A DNA stretch of 64,000 nt from Thermofilaceae archaeon. GTDB taxonomy: Archaea > Thermoproteota > Thermoprotei > Thermofilales > Thermofilaceae. Each line of letters begins with the position of its first letter. Positions within the stretch are counted from its first letter, which is position 1. This document shows positions 17,595-63,107 of the stretch, one piece after another. Under the pieces are notes generated by a model, which was not told the DNA's origin, did no database searches, and was given only the letters and a program-made list of their open reading frames with translations. Location of the stretch: assembly GCA_025057995.1 (NCBI GenBank), contig JANXEW010000003.1, positions 1 to 64,000 on the forward strand, read 5' to 3'. A program made the position numbers and the translations under genes.

Positions 17595-19394
17595 ATGAAA
17601 GGGGCATCTTACAAAGGTAGAAAGGTATTAGCGTTGGCCCTCGGAGCAGCGTTAGTTGTCGCGTTGTTAGCTACACTACCTACCGTATCCGCAGCTCCAA
17701 TCATCAAAAGGTGGACGATGAGGCTTGTGGATCAAACTGGTAGACGGCTAGCTAACGAGGAGGTGCTAGTTGCCGTATGGAATGAAACCGGTAAGTGTGC
17801 GATAGCGTACTTCAAGGGTACGACTGACAAAGACGGTAATCTAACCTTAAGTATAATTGCTGGAACACCTCTCGACTTCGCCGGACCGTACGCTGGACAG
17901 ACCTTCAACGTGACAGTGGCAATAAACAAGTACGGTAGATGGATGCTGTTAAACCAGTCTATCGGCTTAACTTGGAGCGCGCTAATGACTAGGTACTTGA
18001 ACAAAACTATAGTAGCTGGTCATTGGTGGTCTCTAAACTTTAATGCTGTTACAGACGTGGATGGCGACGGTTTCGATGATCCCCTCTACTTCAGTACTGG
18101 TTTAGGGGAGGATCTGGCAAGCTTTGTTGTGTTCTGGAACGATACAAGGGTTTTAATAACGGAGATCTTCGCTAAGACTGGCACGAATACGGCAAAAGAC
18201 TTATTGAATATTTCAGACACATTACTTGACGTCAGTGAGGTTGGCACAGGTTGCTTCCTCTTTAGACGCAGGCCACTAGCGCTTTACAAGGAGGTTGTAT
18301 GGAACCTATTTGAAAACGTTGGAGAGTTTAAGCGGGTAAAAGTTGGGGCTGAAATCCTTAGGTTCCACCCGGCCAACAAGACTGTAGATATCATTAATGC
18401 TACGCCGCTCGGTAGAGTCGGTCCTAAGATCAGAAATGTCCCCTTAACTCCTGTAACAACCATTGATGACTTCGCTTACACAACTTTGTTTAGGGTAAAC
18501 ATACGAGATCCTTGTGGCACCTTAATTGATACTGGTGCTCTTGAGACTTGGAAAGTGTTCTTCCAGGCTGAAGTTGAAGGACGCAACATGATCTTGAGGA
18601 GTGGTACACCTGCGGCTGGCGTTGCTCCAGCCTTTGGTGCTGAAGCGCCTGGTGGGTTCGCTTTCTGGCTTCCTGACATCACAAAGGTTTACGGTAAAAG
18701 GTTCAACATAACTTTGAACGTCAACTACTACAACGTTCAAGTCTTCACGGCATCTATACCTACTAACAGGACCAGCCTCAGCTTAGGCACCTACATGACC
18801 ATGGTAACGACTAACAATGTTAGAATTGTCGATGCTTATACTTCGGTTGTAAAGACTCGAATCATTGTTAAAGACAGTCAGCCGACTCCACAACCTTTAA
18901 CTGGTGCTAGACTGTTGATTGCGGCGCAGGTAGGTGACCCGATATACTCTGCTACGACTACGGGCGGAGCAGCCTTCCTACCGCCTTTCACTACGACAGC
19001 AGTAGCTGAGACTTCCGGCGACTTCGGTAGAGTATACTCTTCGGTTTACAGCGATGGCGGTATGCCGTACGGTTACCTACCAGTTCCCTTCACGTACAGA
19101 GCGAGGAAAGATTTAGTAGCCACCTATACTGTGAGAATCTTCTGGGCTATACCTGGTGGAGAGCGGTGGATCGACGTTACACCTGAGAGGAATACGTTCT
19201 CGCTCAACATTACCGACTCTATAACGAAGGGTTGTCCCATAACGACCTTCACGTTCTTCGCTAAGGTGTTTGAAGTTAAGGTGCGCGTACTGGACTTATG
19301 TAACAGACCGATTACGCCCGCCGCCTTCCCCTGGAGCCTACTTAGTGGCATACCTCGACGGTACGAGGATTGGTGTAGTAGGCTTAGGCGCTGA
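17595..19394 (+). CDS. S-layer-type giant secreted protein, N-terminal part (frameshifted)
   Basis: The first part of a very large surface protein. A signal peptide is clear: basic start (MKGASYKGRK), hydrophobic core VLALALGAALVVALLATL, and a VSA-A cleavage site near residue 33. The rest is beta-rich, Thr/Asn-rich and carries many N-x-S/T sequons, with Ig/CNA-B-like repeats (for example MRLVDQTGRRLANEEV). Homologous-looking sequence continues in the +1 frame: VRVLDLCNRPITPA in this frame should be followed by GAYLVAYLDGTRIG, which is encoded one frame later. The last about 20 residues before the stop at 19394 are therefore out-of-frame. Together with the next entry the intact protein would be about 1720 residues. 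Confidence 0.75.
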   Translation: MKGASYKGRKVLALALGAALVVALLATLPTVSAAPIIKRWTMRLVDQTGRRLANEEVLVAVWNETGKCAIAYFKGTTDKDGNLTLSIIAGTPLDFAGPYAGQTFNVTVAINKYGRWMLLNQSIGLTWSALMTRYLNKTIVAGHWWSLNFNAVTDVDGDGFDDPLYFSTGLGEDLASFVVFWNDTRVLITEIFAKTGTNTAKDLLNISDTLLDVSEVGTGCFLFRRRPLALYKEVVWNLFENVGEFKRVKVGAEILRFHPANKTVDIINATPLGRVGPKIRNVPLTPVTTIDDFAYTTLFRVNIRDPCGTLIDTGALETWKVFFQAEVEGRNMILRSGTPAAGVAPAFGAEAPGGFAFWLPDITKVYGKRFNITLNVNYYNVQVFTASIPTNRTSLSLGTYMTMVTTNNVRIVDAYTSVVKTRIIVKDSQPTPQPLTGARLLIAAQVGDPIYSATTTGGAAFLPPFTTTAVAETSGDFGRVYSSVYSDGGMPYGYLPVPFTYRARKDLVATYTVRIFWAIPGGERWIDVTPERNTFSLNITDSITKGCPITTFTFFAKVFEVKVRVLDLCNRPITPAAFPWSLLSGIPRRYEDWCSRLRR

Positions 19395-22300
19395 CGGTAC
19401 GATGGACGTCAGCCACATACCTGCTGGCAAACTAAAGTTCAGGCTGTTCTGGAAGGGGATGTTCCTTAGAGCTAACGTCACAGCTCCTGCAGAGCCGGAG
19501 ATTAGCGTTACAAAGAACATAGGCACCGCAGTAACCCTAGTCTACCCGATCGGCGATCTAAACATTACTTTGACTATGTGGGACGTCAACTACCCGCTTT
19601 ACAACTTGAGCGTAAAGCTACAGTACTTAAAGGACGGTAGAGTCGTACACGAGGAGCCTTGGAAGGTTACCAACTGTTACGGCAAGGTAACTTACACGCA
19701 GGTACCCATCCGTCCTCTCACCGTAGATGAGGGCGCTGGCCGCACCTATGAACTGAGAGTCATCGCGTACACAAGGGACTTCACGCCGTATATAAGGCCA
19801 CGGGACAAAGACTTGCTTGTCGCTAACACAACCGTCAGCTTCGACAGGTTAACAGTCCACTGTAGGAACGAGTACATAGTCCCCGCTTGGATCTTCAGCT
19901 TCAAGCTGTTCGCAGTCGACCACACTGGAGCGACACTTAGAGGCTTAAAGACGGATATCGGCACATTCCCCGTGGCTGTTCTACTGAACGATATGGTTTA
20001 CCCCAAGCAGAGAACCTGCTGCCCAGACATATGCCCCGACCCAGGCTGCGTCTGTCCGCCTCCGGGTACAATAGACGTAGACTTCCGCATACTAAATGAA
20101 ACCACAGGTGACGCAATCTTCACCTACTATTCTCAGCAGTTCTTCGACTCAGACCCTGACAAAGGTACGATCGGCTTGAAACCACACATGTTTGTCGCAG
20201 GCGCCACCTACCACTTCATGGCATTCCACGGAGGCGTCCTAGTCTACAACTACACGATAACCCTGCCGAGACCCTTTGAGACTAAAACGTTCTTCTTCAA
20301 CGAGACCACCCGAAGGGTAACGTCAGTCGACGGAGAAACCTACACTTACACTTGGTTAACTGATCGCAGAGGGAGCATCAACCACCCGATAATGGTGTTC
20401 AAGGGTGCTAAAAGCTGGGTTGAGACAGGCAAGAGAGCTGACGCTCAAGTAAGGCTTGTGACTTGGGTACAGACGCTTGAAGTAAGAACTATGTCTAACG
20501 CCGGAAAAATAGCGGTACCAAGCCTCAACCTCACACTAGCTAGAACAGACGTCTTGAACTGGACACTGGTAGGCAAAAACTTCTCTGTATTAAGTAAGCC
20601 TGCGACGTGGAGCGACAAGTGGACAAACTACGCATGGAATGCCGTCGGCGGCGCAGACGGCACTGTGAGGATACAAGTGCCAGTATGGGTGCCCAGTAGG
20701 ACAGGTGCGCCGTGGATTGATCGTGTTAAGTTTGGCGCCAGGATAGCCTATGTGTTCGTGTTAGCCGGTAGCGCTTGGAAGAGTCCTGGCGTCCCCGATA
20801 CTCCTGAGGCATATACACTTGGATTATCCAACGCGGCTGGAAAGACTATCACACACAAGATATTTGGCTACATTGTCAACTGGAACTACACGGCTAAGAA
20901 GATAGTGATAAATGCAACGGAGTTCTATCGTGATTGGACGAAGCTTGGCGTCACGTTTAGAGGTAACAACACCCACTTCCTCGGTGACTTCTGGAACATG
21001 ACTTACTGGAGTGGAGCAAGCAAGACTGTCAGGACTGTAGCCATGGACGGTTTCTGTGTTACCGTAGTAGCTCCACCGCCTTGCCCAGGCGCAGCTGAAG
21101 AAGGTTTAGCCAACGTACCGGTATGGGTTGTGGCGATAGGTAAAACGGGTAAAAAGCTTGACCTCGCCACGGCAAGAACAGATGCCACCGGAACCGTAAA
21201 GTTCGCTCCCCCGACGGTCTTCGCTTACAAGTTTAGGGTTGACAAATTCAGTGGTGGTATCCCAGAGATCGACTACACTATCAGTACGCAACAAAACTTT
21301 GAGGATCTATTAAAACCGTACGGGCTGGATGAAGCGAAAGCGAACCTATGCCCCGAGGTACTCAGCAAAACCGTAAAGTTCGGTGAAGAACATAACGATT
21401 TCAAGACTTGCATAGAGTTAAGATGGGAGGCTGTCTACCTCTGGATTGAAGACTGGAGCGGTAAGCCGTTAGTCAACATGATGGTTGCTGCAACCAAGAT
21501 GTATCCAACGCCCAGCGGAGGTATCACGACCTTCGCTTTCAGCACGCCTTTCGCAGGCTCAGCTATAGCTAGGCTGTTAGTAACACCTGGCAGCGCTTAC
21601 ACTGTAACTGTCTATTGGCGTGACAGCTACTTGCTCGCAGCTGCAGGAGCGATACCGAAGTACATTAACATCTACGACAGCTTTGCTGACGAGATAACGC
21701 CCAGGTTATTCGCCAGCAGCGTCTTTACAGTGCCTGGAGGCTTCGTAACTTCAGCTGGTGGAACGATTAAGACGTTCGTGTACATCGGCTTGATCGAGCT
21801 TAAGACGAAGGAGGGTAAGCCTCTAAGCCCTGAGGCCCTAGGCAAGATCACCGTTACGGTTACTTGGCCAGACGGTGTTGTAACCATTGTTAAGCCGGGT
21901 AGCGACGGAGTTGCGCCGATAATACTTAACAAGGATACCGTAAAGAGTTGGCCTCACGCTGCTAGCGAGAAGTATAACCCAGCTTCACCACACCCGCAGA
22001 GCCCCGCTGGCGACTACAAGATAGTTGTCGAATGGGCTGGAGTCGGTAAAATAGCTGAAAAGACTATGAGGATCCACAGGGCTAAGCTAGATACGCCGGA
22101 AGTCAGAGAGCCTGTGTTCGTAGATGTAACGGACGTTACAATCACGCTCACCACGCCGTTCAACACGCCCATGACTGGTGCTACAGTCACAGTCACAAAG
22201 CCTGACGGCACCACTTTAACATTGACTGCAGATGCGCAAGGAAGGGTAACTGTACCAGAGGTTCCGTTAAGTAGAGTGGATATCGCTGTAACCTCTTGGA

Positions 22301-22767
22301 ACGGTATGCCAGTGAACTTCAGGAAGACCGGGTTAACAGCTGGCGCTGCCACAGTTGATACAATAGGTAGACTCGTCGTAACAGTAGTAGGAGCAAGGAA
22401 CCAAGGACTCGACGGCGCTAGGGTGAGCATAAGTGGCGCTACCACGATAGTAGGAACAACCGACGCCGCAGGCAAGTTCGCTATAGAACTTCCCGCTGGC
22501 AGCTACACCGTCACAGCTGAGAAAGGTGGAAGGACAGGCAGCACCAGCGTCAACGTCGCAGGTGGACAGACAGCAGAGGCTACGGTGAAGGTAGACGTAT
22601 TCATGTCGTTAGCTGGTTGGGAGATGAGCTTCAGCGAGTTCATCGGCCTGCTACTCTTGATAGCTATACTTGCATTAGTGCTCTTCATCATAGCTCACGA
22701 GTACGCCGTCTGGAGACGTAGGAGAATCGCTAGAGCAATCGTCCCAGCCAAGCCCGAGGGCGCTTAA
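19270..22767 (+). CDS. S-layer-type giant secreted protein, C-terminal part (frameshifted continuation)
   Basis: Open from TTG 19270, but the true reading probably enters this frame near 19332 from the upstream part; the first about 20 residues here are out-of-frame. The protein is a series of beta-sandwich repeats. The last ones are carboxypeptidase-regulatory-like (PMTGATVTVTKPDGT..., GLDGARVSISGATTIVGTTD). A five-cysteine cluster (20017-20055) is unusual for an S-layer protein. The C-terminus is a single membrane anchor, FIGLLLLIAILALVLFIIA, and a basic cytosolic tail. It would form or stabilise the cell wall lattice outside the membrane. Many N-glycosylation sequons fit the glycan locus at 1-8.4 kb. 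Confidence 0.8.
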   Translation: MKLRCAYWTYVTDRLRPPPSPGAYLVAYLDGTRIGVVGLGADGTMDVSHIPAGKLKFRLFWKGMFLRANVTAPAEPEISVTKNIGTAVTLVYPIGDLNITLTMWDVNYPLYNLSVKLQYLKDGRVVHEEPWKVTNCYGKVTYTQVPIRPLTVDEGAGRTYELRVIAYTRDFTPYIRPRDKDLLVANTTVSFDRLTVHCRNEYIVPAWIFSFKLFAVDHTGATLRGLKTDIGTFPVAVLLNDMVYPKQRTCCPDICPDPGCVCPPPGTIDVDFRILNETTGDAIFTYYSQQFFDSDPDKGTIGLKPHMFVAGATYHFMAFHGGVLVYNYTITLPRPFETKTFFFNETTRRVTSVDGETYTYTWLTDRRGSINHPIMVFKGAKSWVETGKRADAQVRLVTWVQTLEVRTMSNAGKIAVPSLNLTLARTDVLNWTLVGKNFSVLSKPATWSDKWTNYAWNAVGGADGTVRIQVPVWVPSRTGAPWIDRVKFGARIAYVFVLAGSAWKSPGVPDTPEAYTLGLSNAAGKTITHKIFGYIVNWNYTAKKIVINATEFYRDWTKLGVTFRGNNTHFLGDFWNMTYWSGASKTVRTVAMDGFCVTVVAPPPCPGAAEEGLANVPVWVVAIGKTGKKLDLATARTDATGTVKFAPPTVFAYKFRVDKFSGGIPEIDYTISTQQNFEDLLKPYGLDEAKANLCPEVLSKTVKFGEEHNDFKTCIELRWEAVYLWIEDWSGKPLVNMMVAATKMYPTPSGGITTFAFSTPFAGSAIARLLVTPGSAYTVTVYWRDSYLLAAAGAIPKYINIYDSFADEITPRLFASSVFTVPGGFVTSAGGTIKTFVYIGLIELKTKEGKPLSPEALGKITVTVTWPDGVVTIVKPGSDGVAPIILNKDTVKSWPHAASEKYNPASPHPQSPAGDYKIVVEWAGVGKIAEKTMRIHRAKLDTPEVREPVFVDVTDVTITLTTPFNTPMTGATVTVTKPDGTTLTLTADAQGRVTVPEVPLSRVDIAVTSWNGMPVNFRKTGLTAGAATVDTIGRLVVTVVGARNQGLDGARVSISGATTIVGTTDAAGKFAIELPAGSYTVTAEKGGRTGSTSVNVAGGQTAEATVKVDVFMSLAGWEMSFSEFIGLLLLIAILALVLFIIAHEYAVWRRRRIARAIVPAKPEGA
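19328..19331 (+). other. Probable frameshift site in the S-layer-type gene
   Basis: A run of four C (within ttcccctgg). Reading with one C fewer joins the two frames as ...ITPAAFPGAYLVAYLDG, which restores continuous repeat-like sequence. It could be a sequencing or assembly error, a natural mutation or phase variation, or recoding. Nothing in the sequence decides between these. Confidence 0.6.
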
Positions 22768-22977: not shown

Positions 22978-23817
22978 GTGCGCGTTTATCTTCCCAAGAG
23001 TTCGAGATCGAGGTTTAGACGTTTAGGATCCCGCTTCCTAGTCGATGTTGCTCTCACTGATGTTGACTTGTCGCGATTTCTAGGTAGGGTTCAAGTTGTT
23101 GCCGCCCCTTGTTGGGTGACTGGTTTAGAAGCTATGAACCGTAGGCTTTTAGTAGAGCGTTTAAGCACGGGTGCACGCGGGTTAGATGAGCTGCTGGGTG
23201 GCGGTCTCGAGGCTGGCTACTTGACGGAGCTCGTTGGAGAGTTTGGTGCTGGTAAGACTCAGCTTTGTCATCAGCTTGCTGTGATGGTTCAGTTGCCTCG
23301 TGATAGGGGTGGTCTTAACGGTAGGGCTTTGTACGTTGATACTGAAGGTACTTTTAGGCCTGAGAGGGTTGTCAGTATGGCTAGGTACAGGGGCTTAGAC
23401 CCTGAGAAAACATTAGAGAACATTATAGTCGTCGAAGCGAGGAGTGAAGGCTCCCTCTTATCCGTTATCTCAGCTTTAAGAGAGCTTGAGGTTAGGCTCA
23501 TCGTAGTTGACACGTTGATAGCCCCTCTAGTAGCGGGAGATGGGGTTGAAGGGCTTGTGAGGAGACAGTATTCTCTTTCGAGGCTTTTAACGATGTTGAG
23601 GGAGGCAGCTGCTGAGGGTAGGGTGGTCGTGGTAACGAATAGGATGTCTATGGATAAACCGGCCGGAGGTTTTGCCCTGGCTTTAGGCTGTCACTACGGC
23701 GTGATCCTGAGGAAGTTGGCTGGTCCTAGGAGGAGGGCAGAGTTAGTTAGGGCTCCCCACCTCCCCGCCCAGTCTGCGCTGCTACTGTTGTCTGAGGAAG
23801 GTGTCGTCGATGCTTAG
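22978..23817 (+). CDS. RadA paralogue A (RadB/aRadC-like RecA-fold ATPase) carrying a RadA-identical core block
   Basis: A RecA-fold ATPase of 279 residues from GTG 22978, or 227 from ATG 23134. The first 52 residues match nothing I know. The core starts at LSTGARGLDELLGGGLEAG, then Walker [10 protein letters not shown] (about residues 87-95) and Walker B LIVVDTLIAP (Asp about 180). There is no helix-hairpin-helix domain and no FxxA-type motif, unlike RadA. Residues about 86-156 come from a DNA block identical to paralogue B and nearly identical to radA; everything outside it is diverged. It overlaps the next paralogue by 17 bp. It probably assists RadA filament control, as archaeal RadA paralogues do, but this is inferred. 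Confidence 0.85.
   Translation: MRVYLPKSSRSRFRRLGSRFLVDVALTDVDLSRFLGRVQVVAAPCWVTGLEAMNRRLLVERLSTGARGLDELLGGGLEAGYLTELVGEFGAGKTQLCHQLAVMVQLPRDRGGLNGRALYVDTEGTFRPERVVSMARYRGLDPEKTLENIIVVEARSEGSLLSVISALRELEVRLIVVDTLIAPLVAGDGVEGLVRRQYSLSRLLTMLREAAAEGRVVVVTNRMSMDKPAGGFALALGCHYGVILRKLAGPRRRAELVRAPHLPAQSALLLLSEEGVVDA
23234..23446 (+). repeat. RadA-core homogenised block, copy 1
   Basis: Bases 23254-23446 (193 bp) are identical to 23906-24098. Bases 23234-23423 (190 bp) match the reverse complement of 62452-62641 with one mismatch (T at 23376 versus C in the radA coding strand). Identity includes synonymous positions and stops abruptly on both sides. The block encodes the region from Walker A to about 60 residues beyond it. 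Confidence 0.95.
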
Positions 23818-24454
23818 CACGGGCGCAGAGTGTCTTGACGCGCTCTTAGACGGCGGCTTAAAAGCACCTGTGTTGTTAGAAGTGGTGGGCGCGCCTGCTA
23901 CAGGCAAGACTCAGCTTTGTCATCAGCTTGCTGTGATGGTTCAGTTGCCTCGTGATAGGGGTGGTCTTAACGGTAGGGCTTTGTACGTTGATACTGAAGG
24001 TACTTTTAGGCCTGAGAGGGTTGTCAGTATGGCTAGGTACAGGGGCTTAGACCCTGAGAAAACATTAGAGAACATTATAGTCGTCGAAGCGAGGAGTGTC
24101 GTAAATCTAGTTGAAGCCGTGTTAGCGTTGGAAGGCTTTGAAGTCGATCTCCTACTCATAGACTCTATAGCTAGCCCGTTTATATTCCCGAGAAGTATAG
24201 GGGAAGCTAGAAGGTCGTGGGGTCGCTTAGTCGCGCTGCTCAAACGTTTATCTAAGCTAAATCGAATTACAGTAGTTACAAACGTTGAAAGGGGTGGAAG
24301 GGCTTCAGGAGATCCGTACACGGCCATGTGGGTTGACAAGAGAATCAAGCTGACAAACCAGAGTGGAAACAGGGTAGATGTATCGCTCACTCTTCCATAC
24401 TCGGTGAAGAAGTGTAGGCTAATGATCAGCGAGGAGGGAGTTCTACAGGGATAA
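23801..24454 (+). CDS. RadA paralogue B (RadB/aRadC-like RecA-fold ATPase) carrying a RadA-identical core block
   Basis: A minimal RecA-fold ATPase of 217 residues. The core begins LSTGAECLDALLDGGLKAP, with Walker A reading GAPATGKTQ (residues about 30-38), which differs from paralogue A and RadA up to the lysine. After the shared block (residues about 36-100) the sequence is its own: VNLVEAVLALEGFEVDLLLIDSIASP with Walker B Asp. It lacks the N-terminal DNA-binding domain. GTG 23801 overlaps paralogue A's stop by 17 bp; ATG 23810 is an alternative start. The pair is one transcription unit and may form a heteromer, which is a guess. Confidence 0.85.
   Translation: MSSMLSTGAECLDALLDGGLKAPVLLEVVGAPATGKTQLCHQLAVMVQLPRDRGGLNGRALYVDTEGTFRPERVVSMARYRGLDPEKTLENIIVVEARSVVNLVEAVLALEGFEVDLLLIDSIASPFIFPRSIGEARRSWGRLVALLKRLSKLNRITVVTNVERGGRASGDPYTAMWVDKRIKLTNQSGNRVDVSLTLPYSVKKCRLMISEEGVLQG
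23906..24098 (+). repeat. RadA-core homogenised block, copy 2
   Basis: 193 bp identical to 23254-23446, 652 bp downstream in direct orientation and in the same codon phase. The first 170 bp also match radA (62452-62621 reversed) with the same single mismatch. Copies 1 and 2 share 23 further bases beyond the radA match, so they exchanged with each other as well as with radA. Confidence 0.95.
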
Positions 24455-62024: not shown

Positions 62025-63107
62025 AACCCCTTCATCCGAGATAGTAAAAACAGATTCCTTCTCTGCATGCTTGGGAGAGTCAATAATTCTTGCGATCCTC
62101 TTGCCTTCCTTCCCCTTTCTCAGCCAAAGCCTGTAAGTACATCCATGAGCCACTATGTTACCACCAGCCGGTTTCAGTGGATTCCCGAAGAATACATCGG
62201 GAGCCGCTAGAACTTGGTTTGTTACAACAACAGCGGCATCGTAGATAGCCGCTATCTTAGCAAGTTGCATGATGTGTTTATTCAGCTTCTGTTGTCTAGC
62301 CGCCAGGTTCTCTCTACCAGGATATTCGGCCCTGAAGTGCGTGATTAGGCTATCGACGAGGATGATTTTCACGCCTTCTTCTTCGATCAAGTGTTTGGCT
62401 TCATCTATAAGCAACATTTGATGGTCACTGTTGTAAGCTCTAGCGTATATGATGTTCTCTAATGTTTTCTCAGGGTCTAAGCCCCTGTACCTAGCCATGC
62501 TGACAACCCTCTCAGGCCTAAAAGTACCTTCAGTATCAACGTACAAAGCCCTACCGTTAAGACCACCCCTATCACGAGGCAACTGAACCATCACAGCAAG
62601 CTGATGACAAAGCTGAGTCTTACCAGCACCAAACTCTCCAATAAGCTCTGTAATAGCTCTTGTTTCTATCCCTCCTTCCAGAAGATCATCCAAAGCTCTC
62701 ACACCGGTTGAGATGTAGGCTACATTCTTTCTCTCCTCATAATACTCCTTTGCGGTCATAAAGAGTTTACCGAGACTGATCAAGCGTTGTGCAGCTCTTA
62801 TTATGCTTAGAGCCCTTTCTTCAGACCCTAGAACTGTTGCGAGCTCATGAGATGAAGCATAGGCCACGTCCTTCACTGAAGCATATCCAGCCTGCCTAAG
62901 TTTCTGCGCTGTCACTCTTCCAACTCCCTCCAAGTCCTCTAAATCCAAACCCACGGGTTCCTCATGCGGTACATGTTCTTCCTCTATGAATTCCTCGGTA
63001 TACTCCATCGACTGCTCCATTTCGCTCTCAACTGTTTCCCCATCTATGCTCGAAACTTTCTCTGTTCCAGACGCTCTCCTCTTGCTCACGATTACCTCAT
63101 CTTCCAC
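62013..63107 (-). CDS. radA: DNA repair and recombination protein RadA
   Basis: The archaeal Rad51/RecA recombinase, 364 residues. An acidic N-terminal tail (1-50) leads to the helix-hairpin-helix domain ([20 protein letters not shown]). The FxxA-type polymerisation motif is FMTA in [15 protein letters not shown]. The core has Walker [10 protein letters not shown] (about residues 157-165), Walker [18 protein letters not shown], loop L1 and L2 ([16 protein letters not shown]), and the end [18 protein letters not shown]. The 190-bp block 62452-62641 is shared with the two tandem paralogues. A TATA-like ccttttaaaag (minus strand) lies about 23 bases upstream of ATG 63107. Confidence 0.97.
62452..62641 (-). 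repeat. RadA-core homogenised block, radA copy
   Basis: 190 bp inside radA matching 23234-23423 in inverted orientation with one mismatch (G at 62499 on the plus strand). In radA the block flows into a normal family continuation ([10 protein letters not shown]), so radA is the likely donor. Confidence 0.95.

Follow-up and report, generated by a model that had tools for sequence, protein, structure and literature searches.

The ATPase core of the recombinase gene radA is shared, almost letter for letter, with two tandem RadA-like paralogues (P1 and P2) in the genome of a Thermofilaceae archaeon, and comparable sharing recurs genome by genome among its relatives. The pattern is very probably the product of ongoing ectopic gene conversion, which maintains a self-renewing island of identity confined to this conserved module. 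The window, that is, the whole stretch of DNA analysed, comprises 64,000 nucleotides of contig JANXEW010000003.1, and the genome to which it belongs (G000) is a MAG of 1.81 Mb in 83 contigs. The genes and block copies concerned are the following.

19270..22767, forward strand: large ORF with CarboxypepD_reg domains, conserved neighbour upstream of P1/P2
22978..23817, forward strand: P1, 279-aa RadA/Rad51-like paralogue
23801..24454, forward strand: P2, 217-aa RadA-like paralogue, its frame overlapping the end of P1
24685..26694, forward strand: rqcH (NFACT), downstream of the paralogue pair; NCBIfam RqcH_arch 538 bits
62013..63107, reverse strand: radA, encoding a canonical recombinase of 364 aa that has an HhH domain and an FMTA linker motif
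23234..23446, forward strand: P1 copy of the block, running from Walker A to IIVVEARS
23903..24098, forward strand: block copy in P2, beginning within the P-loop at GKTQ
62448..62641, reverse strand: radA copy of the block (about residues 156-219), which is the probable donor
23424..23446, forward strand: extra 23 bp common to P1 and P2 only, P1-like in related genomes

The product of radA passes both NCBIfam RadA cut-offs (472.2 versus 259 bits for NF003301 and 453.4 versus 361.15 bits for TIGR02236), below which P1 (197 and 183.1 bits) and P2 (131.6 and 114.4 bits) both fall. The paralogues are also far below the RadB cut-offs of 172.4 bits (TIGR02237) and 278 bits (NF006861), scoring 70.9 and 49.7 bits for P1 and 58.4 and 52.9 bits for P2. 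Pfam Rad51 (PF08423) is passed by all three, with 165.6 bits for P1, 115.3 for P2 and 307.6 for radA relative to a gathering threshold of 22 bits. P1 has neither the HhH N-terminal domain nor the FxxA linker motif, and its L2 is shortened; in the pair as a whole, the FxxA motif, the HhH domain and RadA-like L1/L2 are all missing. The AF2 model of P1, reliable in its core only (mean pLDDT 77, with the first ~57 residues poor), adopts the RAD51/RadA-type ATPase fold, and its top Foldseek matches are RAD51 chains.

P1 and P2 sit between the CarboxypepD_reg ORF and rqcH. P1 is flanked by a long upstream ORF and a P2-like ORF in five further genomes (G009, G010, G011, G012 and G014), most of which have an rqcH-like frame next, and one flank of P1/P2 is visible in G001, G002 and G004. 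With rqcH and the other neighbours conserved in relatives, position supports the orthology of P1 and P2 in addition to sequence. The two are to be regarded as ancient RadA paralogues, maintained as a conserved pair beside rqcH. The absence of P1 and P2 from G003 and G016, both of which gave no RqcH match, is not readable as loss, and the additional matches returned by a class-wide search with P1 as query were mainly radA. A RadA-like gene also adjoins rqcH, a gene of ribosome rescue, in G006, G008, G017, G019, G020 and G024, and this link spans the order.

Within the window, 23254-23446 and 23906-24098 are identical at 193/193 bp, and 23234-23423 matches the reverse complement of 62452-62641 at 189/190 bp, the sole mismatch being T/C at offset 142. 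Both identities had been claimed in an earlier note on this DNA and are borne out, as is the run of 23 bp by which the paralogues resemble each other further (23424-23446 = 24076-24098). Self-BLAST of the window detected no further repeats at E<=1e-3, and no block copies were found in the 1.81 Mb genome beyond these three, which rest on one MAG assembly. Identical runs of 142, 122 and 193 nt were never reached in 5000 codon-alignment shuffles, the shuffle maxima being 32-44. Outside the block, the gene pairs of the window retain 22-31% amino-acid identity and 27-33% third-position identity.

Near-identical DNA of the module, from Walker A to about "LENI", occurs in at least 12 genomes from several families, including assemblies of 2 and 4 contigs. 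Within the Thermofilaceae, radA shares it with P1/P2, and outside the family it is shared by a RadA-like tandem pair, with the following tracts.

G001, radA and paralogue: 167 bp, 99.4%
G002, radA and paralogues: 170 bp and 127 bp, 100%
G004, radA and paralogue: 99 bp, ended by the contig end
G006, radA and paralogues: 126-156 bp, 99-100%
G008, radA and paralogue: 192 bp, 96%
G010, radA and paralogue: 275 bp, 100%
G011, radA and paralogue: 283 bp, 97.9%, six differences
G014, radA and paralogue: 293 bp, 100%
G023, RadA-like tandem pair outside the family: 234 bp, 94.9%, with a stretch of N within
G033, RadA-like tandem pair outside the family: 106 bp, 95.3%
G038, RadA-like tandem pair outside the family: 143 bp, 91.6%

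Within a genome (G000, G001, G002, G004, G006, G010, G011 and G014), 0.79-1.00 of the fourfold sites in the block are identical, compared with about 0.2-0.6 outside the block in the same within-genome pairs. Between genomes, radA compared with radA gives 0.05-0.55 at fourfold sites in the block, bar one very close pair; because these sites differ from genome to genome, the block DNA is free to change and has been copied anew in each lineage. A tree of block DNA joins each radA to the paralogues found in that genome, some forks being weak (174 columns), in conflict with the protein tree built without the block, which groups by gene. Holding all radA blocks together was rejected (p-AU 0.002), as was holding all P1 blocks together (p-AU 7e-5). 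Paralogues within a genome are closer at synonymous sites than orthologues between genomes, and together with the conflict of trees inside and outside the tract this is the signature of concerted evolution. Block borders vary between genomes, and P1 is unconverted in four Thermofilum genomes, namely G009 (T. uzonense), G012, G013 and G015. Homogenisation within single genomes, its borders, its repetition and its spread across families are matters of observation, and the comparison strongly supports the view that the block has been homogenised INDEPENDENTLY in each lineage, radA with the P1/P2 of its own genome. The recent, ongoing conversion among radA and two tandem paralogues proposed in the earlier note thus gains strong support from independent recurrence in relatives, whose blocks display ordinary synonymous divergence between genomes and homogenisation within each converted genome.

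Further repeats were seen in passing. The N stretch of the tandem RadA-paralogue tract in G023 (L120, G023:C108, near 2195-2428) is as expected of a repeat that confuses assembly. In T. uzonense (G009), two other RadA paralogues with near-identical C-terminal coding ends are each followed, after ~200 bp, by a copy of a 239-bp repeat of 99.6% identity (L087:2598-2836 and L089:2576-2814).

For the direction of copying, the informative sites are few. At residue 203 of G000, and more weakly at 219, radA is in the state of other radA genes and P1 and P2 share a derived base; P1 and P2 agree at residues 220-227, where their sequence, like the extra 23 bp, resembles that of P1 in relatives; and at residue 188 of G011 it is P1 that is derived. 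Copying in G000 was therefore likely from radA to P1 and then from P1 to P2, an order that lends support, from these few sites, to the previous suggestion of radA as donor followed by exchange between the paralogues.

Aligned to human RAD51, the block is ungapped at an offset of 30 (query = RAD51 + 30), covers RAD51 ~126-190 and takes in Walker A, E163, M158, D187-V189 and A190 (RAD51 numbering). In RAD51, M158 and A190 are Phe-pocket residues and D187-V189 form the Ala-pocket edge for FxxA binding (PMC5117717), and a docking role of P1/P2 towards RadA is possible. Converted copies also carry catalytic residues that are missing from unconverted orthologues. Unconverted P2 (G004, G009, G010, G011, G012 and G014) has a degenerate P-loop ending in GSGR and misses ~15 core residues, whereas converted P2 has those residues and a canonical P-loop, the radA-derived stretch starting at GKTQ within it. 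Likewise, unconverted P1 (G009, G012, G013 and G015) reads DT(R/T)GDF, and converted P1 reads D(T/A)EGTF with the catalytic glutamate. Such differences may reflect either the restoration of a lost site by copying or its later loss from the unconverted orthologues.

The earlier note called it unusual for a recombinase gene to act as donor to its own paralogues. That the process is peculiar to a recombinase is not supported, as thermosome and Cdc48 pairs in these genomes have tracts of equal or greater length. In each of seven genomes tested (G001, G002 and G009-G013; loci L145-L161, about residues 280-426 depending on the gene), the two thermosome genes have an exact run of 162-304 bp in common, always in one position and with divergent flanks, and the G014 pair shares 127 bp at a broken contig. 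Eight genomes (G000, G002 and G009-G014; L225-L241) each have two Cdc48/VAT-like genes with exact runs of 137-255 bp in common, mostly in the second AAA domain and again genome by genome. Between genomes, thermosome and Cdc48 orthologues have exact runs of at most 53 bp despite 81-88% protein identity. Runs reached only 46 (G011), 79 (G014) and 42 bp (G010) in ABC ATPases once overlapping loci were set aside, and only 16-60 bp in thermosome pairs from eleven genomes outside the order. Several paralogue families of Thermofilaceae thus show elevated ectopic conversion; the most extreme case is that of radA and P1/P2, because the partners are elsewhere only 19-33% identical. In G014, G006 and G000 the thermosome contigs are broken, which would fit the run shared by the thermosome genes.

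How the island persists can be pictured as follows. Only between Walker A and about LENI, a stretch that includes the DTEGTF catalytic strand, would the DNA still be similar enough for radA and P1/P2 to pair, so that a break or lesion in either paralogue would be repaired from radA or the other paralogue, with a tract of about 100-290 bp being copied. Copies with a working ATPase core would survive; tracts extending into the paralogue-specific ends are not seen and are presumably removed by selection. Fresh identity would raise the odds of the next conversion, the island lasting while exchange outruns divergence and exchange ending when similarity becomes too low, as may have happened in T. 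uzonense and three relatives. In this picture we infer the repair mechanism, the similarity threshold and the purging of longer tracts.

Selection for a shared RadA surface, by which P1/P2 keep RadA's ATPase and FxxA-acceptor face, is a less likely though possible explanation. The RadA linker would dock on P1/P2, which would cap or load RadA filaments, with conversion supplying variation and co-assembly selecting among it. The FxxA-pocket residues do fall within the block in the ungapped RAD51 alignment, and P1/P2, having neither FxxA nor RadA-like L1/L2, would be acceptors only. Yet RadA identity is unneeded in the four Thermofilum genomes that hold an unconverted P1 without the catalytic Glu, and the P-loop of P2 is degenerate in G004, G009-G012 and G014. 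Several of the RAD51 chains that best match the P1 model come from paralogue-capped filaments, but these matches are RAD51 itself rather than the capping paralogues and say little on capping. Thermosome and Cdc48, the other converted families, are likewise oligomer subunits, although conversion-prone modules would look alike without such selection. The fuller proposal, that P1/P2 cap RadA filaments or act as mediators, with their RadA-docking and ATPase face refreshed by repeated copying from radA, and that core copying also reinstated ATPase residues in a degenerate P2, is one we would advance only tentatively and consider rather improbable. Selection for a shared RadA-facing surface may nevertheless act on top of the conversion island.

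Other explanations fare worse. An assembly or binning artefact, in which the assembler put one radA block into the paralogues, draws on the window genome being a MAG of many contigs and on several related MAGs breaking in the block; it is very improbable given that every copy has unique flanks with syntenic orthologues, that the pattern recurs in separate assemblies (radA and P1 in G011, of 2 contigs, and G014, of 4, with no broken contigs) and that divergence after copying (the six differences of G011, and P1 of G001) is biological. Contig ends fall within the 189-bp block 15 times in fragmented relatives (four of them in one 20-contig genome) versus about 2 expected from rounded contig numbers and genome sizes under uniform breaks, and they cluster there because a true repeat, present in the reads, breaks assemblies. 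That purifying selection on the DNA or RNA keeps the copies identical has a negligible chance of being correct: no part of the RadA protein is more conserved than the block, but fourfold sites of the radA block vary freely between genomes (5-55% identical). Inteins are known from archaeal radA genes, at sites close to the P-loop, which lends some plausibility to a mobile cassette or homing element that brings the block into genes. Such an element is nonetheless highly unlikely, as the block keeps the reading frame and occupies the equivalent position in homologous genes, its borders vary between genomes, and the translated radA ORFs that were read show no insertion. Nor was an endonuclease gene or a fixed target-site border tied to converted genomes noticed in the course of the analysis. 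A plasmid search found nothing. Convergence through codon bias was also considered and is rejected, since the identity is 193/193 at a G+C content of 47% and unconverted pairs match at 0.2-0.4 of their fourfold sites.

Gene conversion between radA and its paralogues was not found reported in searches of the open-licence literature, and related phenomena differ in instructive ways. Gene conversion in archaeal chaperonins was reportedly described by Archibald and Roger in 2002; it too involves paralogous ATPase subunits, and thermosome pairs are converted here as well, but chaperonin paralogues are ~60% identical throughout, which radA and P1/P2 are not. Copies of the tuf and nif genes are near-identical duplicates. 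Their concerted evolution (PMC11276520) likewise relies on short conversion tracts that even out the copies within a genome, whereas radA and P1/P2 are deeply diverged paralogues. Archaeal mtrA-1 and mtrA-2 (PMC4632066) are paralogues that long-lasting conversion keeps uniform in one domain across whole orders, another part remaining distinct. There the exchange concerns a whole domain of two genes in one operon; here it concerns an ATPase module of ~60-90 aa, common to a distant recombinase gene and a pair of paralogues with 22-33% amino-acid identity elsewhere. RadB and aRadC, proposed RadA regulators, have RadA-like ATPase domains without the N-terminal dsDNA-binding domain (PMC4080772), an architecture that P1/P2 resemble; unlike them, P1/P2 score far under the NCBIfam RadB cut-offs, lie beside rqcH and have radA-derived cores.

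Taken together, radA and P1/P2, whose proteins differ by about 70-75% elsewhere, provide a clean natural example of module-limited conversion that recurs across an archaeal order, and reveal that a catalytic core is transplantable between paralogues even where orthologues lack active-site residues. Because the block of the paralogues follows radA, the assumption of a single history fails for RadA-family protein trees over their full length. The finding also offers a reason for the frequent radA breaks in MAGs of Thermofilales. With RadA, thermosome and Cdc48 all affected, the lineage stands out for unusually active ectopic conversion, which makes the similarity threshold of recombination in hyperthermophiles accessible to comparison between genomes. 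If the reading of P1/P2 as caps or mediators were true, the regulators of a recombinase would have co-evolved with it through the very recombination that it performs itself.
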